From NCBI GenBank assembly GCA_903919975.1, contig CAIXKE010000094.1, positions 62,001 through 126,000 of the forward strand: a DNA stretch of 64,000 nucleotides, read 5' to 3'. The position numbers and the translations under genes were made by a program. This document shows positions 26,732-34,762 of this stretch, piece after piece (the stretch's first letter is position 1; each line of letters begins with the position of its first letter). The DNA is from Akkermansiaceae bacterium (GTDB lineage: Bacteria > Verrucomicrobiota > Verrucomicrobiia > Verrucomicrobiales > Akkermansiaceae). The notes beneath the pieces are model-generated. The model made no database searches, was not told where the DNA came from, and was given only the letters and a program-made list of their open reading frames with translations.

Positions 26732-26902
26732 GGAATAAAGAATTTTCATCACCGCCAAGACGCCAAGTGCGCCAAGGAAACTTTAAAAATATGACCGAGG
26801 GGAGAGGTTGGCCGCGGGTTGAGAAAATTTCTAATCCCCAATTTCCTCTCTGAACCTTGGCGCACTTGGCGTCTTGGCGTTTCATCCAAAATTCTTTGAT
26901 CC
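26732..26902. repeat. Long inverted repeat carrying the CCAAGACGCCAAGTGCGCCAAGG motif type
   Basis: A 25-bp perfect inverted repeat pairs 26752-26777 (CGCCAAGACGCCAAGTGCGC...) with 26855-26879, with partly matching outer arms containing AAAGAATTTT on both sides. The central loop is about 77 bp. The GCCAAGACGCCAAG string is a dispersed non-coding motif known from many bacterial genomes. It sits between the DUF3500 gene and dapL and could fold as a transcript hairpin or be a small non-autonomous element. Confidence 0.65.
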
Positions 26903-31902: not shown

Positions 31903-31933
31903 GCTGAAAAGCTGAAAAGCTGAAAAGCTGAAA
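31903..31933. repeat. GCTGAAAA octamer tandem repeat
   Basis: Almost four direct copies of GCTGAAAA lie just upstream of the BMV gene starting at 31887. Similar CTGAAA strings occur at 32003-32030 (opposite orientation), 32283-32313 and about 36293 in other gaps of the same locus. Confidence 0.7.
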
Positions 31934-32021
31934 TTGGAGGGTGTAAGCTCTGTGGGTGGTTTCCAGAGAATGGTCGAAAATGAGGTGTCATGATGTCTTA
32001 TTTCAGTGTTTCAGCTTTTAT

Positions 32022-32276
32022 TCAATCAATGACTCCTTGGATGAAGTTGCGGATGGGAGATTTCTTATCGTGGACGAGGTGGCGTGCGCCGACGCCGTCG
32101 GTGGAGACGAAAACTTTCGAGTGTAGGCCAGCGCCGAAAAGGTCGATGGCGACCATGGGAGCGCCCCCAGGATTTCCTGCGGCATCAAGGGCCTGGCAGA
32201 GCAGCATTTTGAAACCCTTGAGTGACGGGTGTCCATGGCTGCTAACGGCGTGGCCGACGACTTGGGCGGGGATCAT
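32022..32276 (-). CDS. BMC pentamer vertex protein (EutN/CcmL family, BMV), copy 2
   Basis: At 84 aa it is short but complete: MIPAQVVGHAVSSHGHPSLK, then LLCQALDAAG, MVAIDLFGAGLHSKVFVSTDG and a last strand ending FIQGVID. It has the EutN fold pattern of a first-strand QV.G followed by the LKG.K.LL segment. The locus has three such genes, as in other PV compartments, where they form vertices. The gap of 134 bp to copy 1 is filled with CTGAAA repeats. Confidence 0.9.
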   Translation of the reverse strand: MIPAQVVGHAVSSHGHPSLKGFKMLLCQALDAAGNPGGAPMVAIDLFGAGLHSKVFVSTDGVGARHLVHDKKSPIRNFIQGVID

Positions 32277-32313
32277 GTGGGTAAAAGCTGAAATGCTGAA
32301 ATACTGAAAAGCT

Positions 32314-32361
32314 GAAATGAAGATCAGATGAAATGAAGATCAGATGAAATGAAGATCAGAT
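32314..32361. repeat. Three exact 16-bp tandem repeats at the end of the aldehyde dehydrogenase gene
   Basis: GAAATGAAGATCAGAT occurs three times in a row without spacer. The third copy contains the stop codon of the aldehyde dehydrogenase gene (TGA at 32358-32356). The array continues a CTGAAAT octamer tract that starts at about 32283. Strand slippage in this array could change the 3' end length. Confidence 0.8.
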
Positions 32362-33828
32362 GATTCGGAGGTTTTCGACTAGGACGCAGCGGCGGATGCG
32401 GGTGAAGGTTTTGGGAGTGGTGATGCCTTCGCCGGTGGTGGTGGCGATGGAGTAGGAAAGATAACCTTCACCACCGAGGCCGAGGCCGGCGACGGATGGG
32501 CCGTTTTTGACGAAGATGGTGGTATCCATTTCCTTGGCCATGTAAGTCATGTGATTGACGTCGCGGGTGTGGATGATGGCGGAGTGGCGGTAGTTGTGTT
32601 CGGCGCGTTTGGCTTCGCGGACGGCAGTCTCGAAGTCCGGGCAGGAAACGATGGGCATCATCGGCATCATTTGCTCTTCTTGAACGAATGGATGGTCGGC
32701 ATCGGTCTCGGCAAAGAGCATTTGGGTGCCGGCGGGAATGGTGGCTCCTGCGTGCTGTGCGAGCACGGCGGGATCGGCACCGACGAGGGCGCGATTCACG
32801 GAGGCGTGTGAGCAGCCACCACCTTCGCCGGGCTTGAAGGTGAATGCGGCGGCCGTGAGTTTCTCCAGCTGTTGCGCATTGATGCGGGCGGCACCGGCTT
32901 TGGTGAGTTCCTCACAGAATTTGTTGAAGACCGGGGCGACGACGAAGACGACTTTTTCGCCGATGCAGAGCAGGTTGTTGTCAAACGCGCCGCCTTCGAT
33001 CACGTTGCGGGCGGCACGGGCGAGATCGGCGGTTTCATCGACGACGACGACCGGGTTTCCAGGGCCGGCGCAGATCGCGCGCTTGCCGGATTTCATGGCA
33101 GCGCCGACGACGGCCGGGCCACCGGTGATGGCGAGCAATGGGATGAGCGGGTTCTTGCAGATGGCGTCGAACGATTCGAGGGTGGGTTGCTCGATGGTGG
33201 TGATGATGTTATCGACACCGAGTTCGCGGAAGATCGCCTCGTTGTAGGCGCGCACGGCCATGGCGGCACTGCGGGCGCCGCCGGGGTGTGGATTGAAAAC
33301 GATCGAGTTTCCGGCGGCGACCATGTTGATCACGTTGCCGGTTAGAGTGGGAACCGAATGGGTGACGGGCAGGATGGCGCCGACCACGCCAAAGGGCGCG
33401 TATTCTTCAAGCGTGATGCCGCCATCGCCGCTCATGGCATAGGGCTGGAGCCACTCGGTGCCGGGAACATTCTTGGTGATGAGGAGCTTGCCGATCTTGT
33501 GATCGAGGCGGCCGATCTTGGTTTCCTCCATCTCGAACTTGCCCCATGCCTCAGCATTGCCAACGGCCATCGCTTTGACGATTTCGATGACCTTGGCACG
33601 GCCGGCGACTCCGAGTTTCTTCAACTTGAGGTGGGAGTCGTTGGCGGCTTGCGCGGCCTTTTCGACACAATTGAAAACTCCGCGTTCGCCGCCGGAGGAG
33701 GAGCCGCAACCGCAGGAGGTTTTAGCGGCGGATGCCGGGGCGGCGGAGGCTTGTGGCTGGCCGGTCGCCAAGCGGGCGACGACGGATTCAACAACGGAGC
33801 GGAGAAGTTCTGGATCGATGGTTTTCAT
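32356..33828 (-). CDS. Microcompartment CoA-acylating aldehyde dehydrogenase (PduP-like)
   Basis: The 490-aa enzyme has an N-terminal amphipathic helix (residues 4-22, IDPELLRSVVESVVARL), a Pro/Ala linker with TSCGCGSS and then the aldehyde dehydrogenase body from about residue 50. It shows the PduP/EutE-type features GVVGAILPVTHSVPTLTGN, TGGPAVVGAAMKSGKRAI, the catalytic Cys in FDNNLLCIGEK and RRCVLV near the end. It oxidises the lactaldehyde-derived aldehyde to an acyl-CoA with NAD. The N-terminal helix fits an encapsulation peptide. The Cys-rich linker is unusual and could bind metal. Confidence 0.93.
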   Translation of the reverse strand: MKTIDPELLRSVVESVVARLATGQPQASAAPASAAKTSCGCGSSSGGERGVFNCVEKAAQAANDSHLKLKKLGVAGRAKVIEIVKAMAVGNAEAWGKFEMEETKIGRLDHKIGKLLITKNVPGTEWLQPYAMSGDGGITLEEYAPFGVVGAILPVTHSVPTLTGNVINMVAAGNSIVFNPHPGGARSAAMAVRAYNEAIFRELGVDNIITTIEQPTLESFDAICKNPLIPLLAITGGPAVVGAAMKSGKRAICAGPGNPVVVVDETADLARAARNVIEGGAFDNNLLCIGEKVVFVVAPVFNKFCEELTKAGAARINAQQLEKLTAAAFTFKPGEGGGCSHASVNRALVGADPAVLAQHAGATIPAGTQMLFAETDADHPFVQEEQMMPMMPIVSCPDFETAVREAKRAEHNYRHSAIIHTRDVNHMTYMAKEMDTTIFVKNGPSVAGLGLGGEGYLSYSIATTTGEGITTPKTFTRIRRCVLVENLRII

Positions 33829-33893: not shown

Positions 33894-34334
33894 TTGAACC
33901 ACAGATTGCTCAGATTACTCAGATTGATTAGATGGTGATTCTTTTGATTTTGAGGGAGGCGTGTTTGAAATTCAGGAGAAGACCGACGCTTAGTCCTGTG
34001 ATTTTGAGGTAACCGATCATCTGCGAAATATGGGCGTCATTGAATGCTTTCACTACCTTCGTGTCCACAATGACTGCATTTTCAATGATGAGGTCCGGAA
34101 TTAGATTTCCAATCGAGCGCTCTTTATAAAACACTGTATGCCGTTTCTGTTGGTCGAAGAAAATACTTTGATCGGCAAACTCGATGCACAACGCGTTTTC
34201 ATACAGCTTTTCATCAAGACCGTTGCGGAGTTCACGATGAACCTCCATCGCTGCGCCAATAATGCGCTGCGTAAGTTCAACATGAAATCCGTCTTTATTC
34301 ATAATCTGAGAAATCTGCGTAATCTGTGGTTAAA
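33894..34334. mobile_element. Inverted-repeat-bounded unit carrying a GxxExxY gene
   Basis: The left repeat 33894-33925 (TTGAACCACAGATTGCTCAG onward) and right repeat 34303-34334 are inverted copies, matching at 28 of 32 positions by eye. Each is built from CAGATT units spaced 9 bp. The gene between them starts 1 bp inside the right repeat and stops 2 bp inside the left. The unit lies between the aldehyde dehydrogenase and pentamer genes of the microcompartment locus. No target-site duplication could be recognised. Confidence 0.65.
33928..34302 (-). CDS. GxxExxY protein (PDDEXK_3 family)
   Basis: The 124-aa protein carries the family features: GAAMEVHRELRNGLDEKLYENAL contains G..E..Y, followed by IPDLIIENAVIVDTKVVKAF, where D, E/D and K are placed like a PD-(D/E)XK nuclease core, and QMIGYLKITGLSVGLLLNF near the end. 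The family is placed in the PD-(D/E)XK nuclease superfamily, but no activity has been shown that I know of. It has no obvious link to microcompartments; its flanking inverted repeats suggest it arrived as a unit. Start ATG at 34302. Confidence 0.9.
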   Translation of the reverse strand: MNKDGFHVELTQRIIGAAMEVHRELRNGLDEKLYENALCIEFADQSIFFDQQKRHTVFYKERSIGNLIPDLIIENAVIVDTKVVKAFNDAHISQMIGYLKITGLSVGLLLNFKHASLKIKRITI

Positions 34335-34665: not shown

Positions 34666-34762
34666 GGGATTTATCAGTTGAAAGTGATCAGTGAGCAGTG
34701 AGCAGTGGAGCGGGATAGACCGAAACCGGCCTTTCCCGCACCATGGCCTGATCACCTCGGGT

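Follow-up and report, generated by a model that had tools for sequence, protein, structure and literature searches.

The GxxExxY locus

The window, that is, the whole 64,000-nucleotide stretch of DNA that was analysed, contains a microcompartment (BMC) operon in which a small gene of the GxxExxY family lies between an EutN-like gene and an aldehyde dehydrogenase gene. The features referred to below are as follows.

33928..34302, minus strand: GxxExxY gene, encoding a stand-alone protein of the PD-(D/E)XK nuclease fold (124 aa; TIGR04256, PF13366, AF2 model and conservation over 123 homologues); motif residues G28, E31, Y34, D70, D80-T-K82, Q94 and Y98
34303..34334, minus strand: upstream arm TTTAACCACAGATTACGCAGATTTCTCAGATT, three CAGATT units, abutting the ATG
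33894..33925, plus strand: downstream arm TTGAACCACAGATTGCTCAGATTACTCAGATT, again three CAGATT units, in inverted orientation to the upstream arm and with 2 nt between it and the stop codon
34357..34665, minus strand: upstream neighbour, BMC vertex (EutN/CcmL-like) gene (best matches under curated cut-offs)
32356..33828, minus strand: downstream neighbour, BMC-type aldehyde dehydrogenase gene (PRK15398, 565.7 bits, cut-off 403)
26753..26879, no strand assigned: gene-free inverted pair of the CGCCAAG word CGCCAAGACGCCAAGTGCGCCAAGG, REPIN-like (arms 25/25, 77 nt apart)

By its profile score the protein belongs to the GxxExxY family (TIGR04256, 134.7 bits against a cut-off of 35), and it also matches PF13366 (PDDEXK_3) with a profile score of 121.9 bits (cut-off 22). 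The two arms, 32 nt each and separated by 377 nt, are complementary at 28 of 32 positions (88%); the upstream arm touches the start codon (0 nt). Each arm consists of AACCA followed by three CAGATT words with 3-nt spacers, and the whole unit, ends included, measures 441 bp. The preliminary description of a 375-bp gene set in 32-bp inverted repeats was borne out, and the gene has terminal inverted repeats, a trait of insertion sequences.

Predicted fold and active site of the protein

An AlphaFold2 model of the protein (pLDDT 95.9, pTM 0.87) was compared with solved structures by two methods. The best Foldseek matches were Cas4 SSO0001 (E 5.5e-4), LHK-Exo, a Cas4-family protein and lambda exonuclease. 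The second comparison also gave Cas4 SSO0001 (Z 10.3, 98 aligned residues, rmsd 3.1 Å), with restriction enzymes, Holliday junction resolvases and LHK-Exo next at Z 6–8, values that may reflect only the common fold. By sequence, no solved structure was matched at E 0.01. G28 and E31 are invariant over 123 proteins, and the conservation of the other motif positions is 122/122 for D70, 120/122 for D/E80, 120/122 for K82, 119/123 for Q94 and 120/123 for Y98. The median pN/pS was 0.21 for 145 same-site pairs, from which pairs with a pS of 0 (at least one) were left out. As judged from these alignments, the predicted active site is maintained and under purifying selection. The proposed membership of the PD-(D/E)XK superfamily thus agrees with the confident model, with the Z score of 10.3 to Cas4 and with the conserved D...(D/E)xK residues, which are predicted to be catalytic.

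The nearest solved folds are those of the Cas4 and lambda-exonuclease types, families in which the motif order is D...(D/E)xK...Qx3Y; GxxExxY has the same order. It differs from Cas4 in its length (124 residues against 202 in the SSO0001 chain) and in having its own inverted arrays around it. Cas4 carries an iron-sulphur cluster, for which GxxExxY has no place because it contains a single cysteine.

Framing of GxxExxY genes by inverted word arrays

Six GxxExxY genes, the sixth of them truncated, are present in the source genome; each has an inverted repeat at or next to it, and the word differs from gene to gene (CAGATT, CGCGAAT, an ACGGAGG-type word, CGCAAAA, CACAGATGG and CGCGAAGG). In the case of the truncated gene the pair is adjacent to it and the flank score was 18, so this gene was not counted as framed, framing being defined as a flank-to-flank inverted score of at least 24. 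In our reading, the words of this genome and its relatives appear to share a style, with a C-N-C-R-R-A-like core behind AACC.

The GxxExxY family was found in 80 of 145 same-family genomes and in 63 of 73 same-genus genomes. In a first set 69 of 80 GxxExxY genes were framed; of 509 control placements at other points of these loci 8 reached the threshold, and of 2000 cross-paired flanks 192 did so. One of 81 rows had been dropped from this set for short flanks, and one locus (L054/L094) is counted twice in it. With duplicates removed and more loci added, the set comprised 118 distinct same-family genes whose flanks were complete, and 105 of these were framed; 5 of 123 genes were left out for incomplete flanks. 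A third set was drawn from many phyla and comprised 80 of 578 relatives in named genome records, of which 2 were dropped for short flanks. It spans Bacteroidota, Acidobacteriota, Proteobacteria, Chloroflexota, Cyanobacteria, Planctomycetota and Gemmatimonadota and includes one archaeal record, a Methanosarcinales MAG. Here 57 of the 78 usable genes were framed, against 10 of 563 placements elsewhere and 357 of 2000 cross-paired flanks; we think that the latter number is high because the words of this clade are alike. In the remaining 21 of 78 homologues arms were absent at the threshold of 24. Repeats around other GxxExxY genes, for which the preliminary description had proposed to look, are therefore found both in the same family and across phyla, and the framing is confirmed and extends far beyond a single locus. 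A chance inverted repeat is ruled out by the 28/32 match of the arms together with the excess of framed genes over the control placements.

GxxExxY had no match in the phage collection, none in PHROGs at E 0.01 and none to any of the PADLOC anti-phage defence models (0 families at E 0.01); the plasmid collection gave seven matches, all below 60% identity. Rfam had no match at gathering scores between 33500 and 34800 of the window, and Pfam found only PDDEXK_3 in the protein, neither a known transposase domain nor RAYT. As to the literature, the available text of one report places a GxxExxY gene next to a reverse transcriptase (PMC8934634), and the accessible part of another lists a viral GxxExxY gene (PMC12085832). 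The family is named in PMC9756366 as well. A search for the GxxExxY name, typical word strings and related topics, in a literature that covers subscription journals only to a small extent, returned nothing on framing by repeats.

Empty, filled and scarred sites in the BMC operon

The dehydrogenase is present in 40 of 73 same-genus genomes. Thirty loci were examined, 29 of which have the EutN neighbour, the window's own locus among them. In these 29, the gap between the dehydrogenase and the pentamer gene was empty in 16 (5–92 bp), held a GxxExxY gene in 10, a gene-free inverted pair in two (L115 and L121) and a half-arm scar in one (L122). The empty site that had been proposed as a check is thus the most frequent state of the gap, and its shortness agrees with the earlier statement that the gene interrupts an otherwise tight operon. 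Conserved presence in all relatives is ruled out, the gene being found in 10 of 29 loci. Among the ten gene-bearing gaps the CAGATT word occurs in three and the CACTGA or CGCTGA word in seven; one of the three CAGATT copies is without half of the gene and without the second arm.

Occupancy of the metH gap and splitting of metH

The 123 GxxExxY genes fall into 28 site clusters, the largest of which comprises 45 genes at metH. As distinct loci, 44 metH gaps are filled and 21 lack the gene. On visual inspection about 15 of these 21 appear clean; in the others there are scars, the remnant of a deletion or a gene-free pair built from another word. The metH gap of the source genome is empty (L162).

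Close species can differ in the content of this gap. Two loci with 95.3% identical flanks (L028/L139) carry different genes and words, and the contents also differ at 94.0% (L032/L042), 90.8% (L140/L179) and 88.8% (L141/L147) flank identity; at 93.2% (L062/L171) a gene stands against a gene-free pair. The first codons of the gene that follows tend to change with the element, and the swaps could for this reason be allelic replacements by homologous recombination. The closest pair of a filled and a clean empty gap (L132/L182) has 89.2% identical flanks, with AAATTT on both sides, a string that also belongs to the inverted arms. A target duplication was looked for at the metH filled/empty junctions and none was resolved at this flank identity.

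The gap falls in the linker that joins the homocysteine and pterin modules of methionine synthase: the part before it covers profile positions 193–312 and the part after it positions 323–769 (in L139). metH is a single open frame, with a 10-codon linker, in two of 65 distinct loci (L175 and L178), and its frame is stopped at the gap in the other 63, of which 44 have the element and 19 do not. Insertion of the element may have split metH, with the split left behind after loss of the element; judged without a species tree, a split that preceded the arrival of the element is equally possible.

As a side observation, the gene-free inverted pair at L171 (G144) is built of yet another word, ACATCGAAC.

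Co-divergence of arm words and protein

Clades of the protein tree carry their own words, among them CGCCAAG, CACTGA, CGGATT, CAGGATT/CAGAATT and CGC-RR-AG. Arm similarity was correlated with protein identity for the 4921 pairs of elements at different site clusters (r = 0.55, permutation maximum 0.09) and remained so for the different-site pairs below 60% identity (r = 0.35, permutation maximum 0.09). Over all 5778 pairs, same-site pairs included, r was 0.72. When arms with a score of at least 24 were called alike, the number of alike pairs at different site clusters was 139 of 3482 below 40% protein identity, 116 of 948 at 40–50%, 99 of 347 at 50–60%, 101 of 114 at 60–70% and 30 of 30 at 70% or more. 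These last 30 pairs are formed by 18 elements, 17 of them with CGCCAAG arms, at three site clusters and essentially from one clade; evidence for recent movement therefore rests on one lineage. An enzyme-lineage-specific flavour of the repeat, a trait of REPIN–RAYT systems, is thus found here between different site clusters as well. Words can change together in place: the BMC-site element L117 has CGCTGA in most units of both arms and its relatives have CACTGA. That gene and repeats behave as one unit is well supported by these comparisons. The co-divergence would also follow if arms and gene travelled together without any recognition.

Word conservation and the predicted transcript stem

The arms of an element were compared with each other and with those of other species at the same site. 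Within elements (49 arm pairs), 31 of 912 word positions (3.4%) and 108 of 393 spacer positions (27.5%) were mismatched. Between species the numbers were 58 of 1794 (3.2%) and 158 of 668 (23.7%), counted over 98 arm comparisons from 41 elements. What is kept is the words and not the whole stem. Conserved words with free spacers are what recognition by a protein would leave, and we infer such recognition from this pattern.

In the predicted fold of the transcript, 28 of the 32 bases of the upstream arm pair with the other arm (z −3.1), with the start codon unpaired just beyond the stem; any inverted repeat would fold into such a stem. All copies at two sites are co-oriented with the operon, 44 of 44 distinct filled gaps at metH and 10 of 10 at the BMC site, so that host read-through would transcribe the unit. 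A cruder count from neighbour orientation, an unreliable method, called 46 of 47 copies co-oriented where the neighbours at other sites are co-directional, yet only 21 of 34 at metH and 4 of 10 at the BMC site, where the exact counts are those above. Co-orientation and the predicted stem would fit read-through with damped expression, or a role at the transcript level.

A second gene family is framed in the same manner. Genes for the S23 four-helix bundle (PF05635) are present in 39 of 41 same-genus genomes, with at least two copies in 37. In a sample of 30 (L281–L310; an example in the source genome is G000:C94:29972-30292), 27 were framed by inverted arms of tandem words, against 161 of 1000 cross-paired flanks, the only control used for this family. 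The arm styles (CAGTGATCAG, AGACGCAAG, GTTGATGG and AGGGGTCAGG) differ from that of GxxExxY.

S23 is also the protein of intervening sequences in 23S rRNA; the available part of one account (PMC4990558) gives, for a well-studied case, a length of 428 nt and a terminal stem of 28 bp, and describes these sequences as long suspected of being mobile or selfish. The resemblance to the 441-bp unit extends, as far as that account goes, to the single small gene, the sporadic presence and the terminal inverted repeats of 28–32 bp that pair in RNA (for GxxExxY, as predicted here). The differences are the protein family, the gene-lineage-specific word arrays of the GxxExxY arms, and the location, which here is between the EutN-like and aldehyde dehydrogenase genes of an operon and not in a 23S rRNA helix. 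This resemblance raises the possibility that GxxExxY units are insertion elements at the RNA level, with arms that form an mRNA stem trimmed by host RNase III, which would make the presence of the unit in an operon harmless, a secondary role for the enzymology of the protein and spread by horizontal exchange of flanking DNA. The predicted pairing of the arms speaks for this, though any inverted repeat would show it, as do the constant co-orientation and the like framing of the S23/IVP family. The spacers, however, differ between arms at 27.5% of positions and the words at 3.4%, a pattern that points to the single words being recognized and less to pairing of the bases. The counts within elements and between species rule out that a pure RNA stem is what is conserved, and we consider the explanation as a whole unlikely.

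Gene-free arrays

The CAGATT triplet, with at most one mismatch, occurs 18 times in the 3.81-Mb source genome, against 0 for the reversed control. Two of these occurrences are the arms described here and seven overlap in one long array on contig C36. A repeat unique to the GxxExxY locus is ruled out by this number. Gene-free CAGATT pairs lie at several loci and share interiors in two families, A (L015, L019 and L023) and B (L018, L020, L022 and L024); family B has extra outer inverted ends, and another transposase may for this reason have spread it. A separate observation is that on one side of the gene-free pair L007 (G000:C36:1068-1245) the CAGATT array runs to about nine units, which suggests expansion at the level of the unit.

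For the CGCCAAG word, the 73 genomes together contain 402 double units; the reversed control gave 16. The pair of this word in the window is intergenic and has perfect 25-nt arms (26753-26777 and 26855-26879); arms with the same word frame GxxExxY genes of other genomes. After removal of the elements' own arms, the median number of CGCCAAG units was 5 in the 15 genomes known to have a CGCCAAG-armed gene and 1 in the other 58, some of which may carry such a gene as well. This link between array and nuclease is modest (one-sided p 0.0095), with at least five units in 16 of the other 58 genomes. The source genome itself has 21 CGCCAAG units, and none of its six GxxExxY genes carries that word. 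Dispersed gene-free inverted doublets, a further trait of REPIN–RAYT systems, are thus found for both CAGATT and CGCCAAG.

These arrays could be independent dispersed intergenic repeats, with the GxxExxY genes as passengers or domesticated genes that came to lie in pairs already present and were spread by recombination between repeats. In line with this, gene-free CGCCAAG arrays outnumber the gene-bearing ones and are present where no cognate gene was found, the window holds other arrays (including GCTGAAA-type arms around an EutN-like ORF), and most of the sampled genes occupy few sites. Purely passive insertion would allow genes to swap words, however, and the word instead goes with the protein lineage across sites and across genomes, so that we hold this explanation to be improbable. 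The preliminary description had itself allowed that the repeats might be a common, unlinked intergenic sequence: repeats of this and other words are indeed dispersed in the genome as gene-free pairs, which bears that condition out in part.

Mobility and proposed mechanism

Same-site pairs at 70% identity or more number 158, in a sample biased towards some clades, since most loci were picked for their top profile scores. The small number of sites, the origin of the close different-site copies in one clade, the lack of a resolved target duplication and the presence of gene-free pairs where no cognate nuclease was found argue against fast transposition. Mobility appears plausible but slow.

Among relatives, occupied and empty states recur at the same sites, as would be expected if a homing-endonuclease-like gene cut element-free allelic gaps and repair copied the element in, the arms being by-products. 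PD-(D/E)XK homing endonucleases do exist: those of the I-Ssp6803I type, as presented in the available text of PMC3943268, resemble the GxxExxY unit in being a small nuclease gene that acts as a selfish unit. They differ in that GxxExxY is framed by inverted word arrays, has gene-free counterparts and shows no sign of an intron or intein. Homing has no need of inverted word arrays, does not predict words that track the protein between unrelated sites and leaves the gene-free pairs unexplained; it is a very unlikely account of the data. Of the earlier view of an uncharacterised mobile or homing-type element, the behaviour of gene and repeats as one unit and the empty, filled and scarred gaps stand; movement itself does not follow from the data in the same way, the arms being word arrays and the sites few.

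The reading that we prefer, and to which we give about even chances, is that the 441 bp are a slowly moving selfish unit of a nuclease and its recognition arrays. A nuclease gene and two inverted arrays of the short word recognized by its lineage would together make a self-contained element. The nuclease would bind both three-unit arrays, one at each end, and bridge them into a pair, and would nick or cut at or beside the array; the ends, or a copied strand, would then be joined again or be copied to an intergenic site that is new to the unit. Gene-free pairs that carry the same word could be mobilized in trans, and the arm stem that ends at the start codon may hold expression low. The unit would persist mostly vertically; now and then it would move, be replaced at its site by another lineage, suffer an internal deletion or be lost. 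Of the several mechanisms considered, this one is the most likely.

More tentatively, and with rather less confidence, the GxxExxY unit could belong to a general class of elements of about 440 bp, in which a small protein lies within inverted arrays of 3–4 tandem words with which it co-evolves, so that every lineage would write and read a word of its own and the units of an array would change in concert. This would be a new kind of mobile element with a transposition chemistry of its own. At least two protein families, GxxExxY and the S23 bundle, would use the design, with the gene-free arrays as non-autonomous populations; insertion into linkers could divide host genes such as metH into two cistrons, and the class would span bacteria and at least one archaeal record. 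If this is true, GxxExxY units would, to our knowledge, be among the smallest autonomous DNA elements.

Relation to known repeat systems

In behaviour, REPIN–RAYT systems come closest to GxxExxY units. The consulted part of the source (PMC3116915) describes inverted doublets with flavours tied to enzymes and an enzyme tree largely congruent with the species, and proposes co-evolution. On that account the likeness lies in the inverted doublets of short repeats, the gene-free copies of about 70–200 bp and the flavour specific to each enzyme gene. RAYT is a tyrosine transposase, whereas GxxExxY is a PD-(D/E)XK nuclease; a REP palindrome stands against a tandem word triplet in the arms; and the GxxExxY gene lies inside its own pair, a design that recurs in many phyla. 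Because its enzyme is of another class and its repeats are arrays of tandem words, the GxxExxY unit is not a member of REPIN–RAYT. Insertion sequences and MITEs likewise have terminal inverted repeats around one gene and shorter gene-free relatives; the GxxExxY unit differs from them in having no known transposase domain, no established target duplication and a length of 441 bp including its ends.

GxxExxY is a common and uncharacterised annotation. If the preferred reading is right, it would account for some of the short-word arrays between genes of these genomes, and a nuclease with naturally diversified DNA specificity would be at hand, with word–protein pairs that can be read off. It would also bear on a long-standing question, namely by what means REP-like repeats and the intervening sequences of 23S rRNA spread.

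Other arrays in the window

Further arrays were observed near the locus. Between the EutN-like and EutM-like genes, at 34683-34707, lies a lone half array in the S23-type style, GTGATCAGTGAGCAGTGAGCAG, for which 0 were expected by shuffles; it is possibly the remnant scar of an S23-type unit. GCTGAAA-type arrays at 31903-32020 and 32282-32363 frame a second ORF (32022-32276) that is EutN-like as judged by eye, and after them comes a perfect tandem array with a 16-bp unit, TGAAATGAAGATCAGA, repeated 3.2 times.
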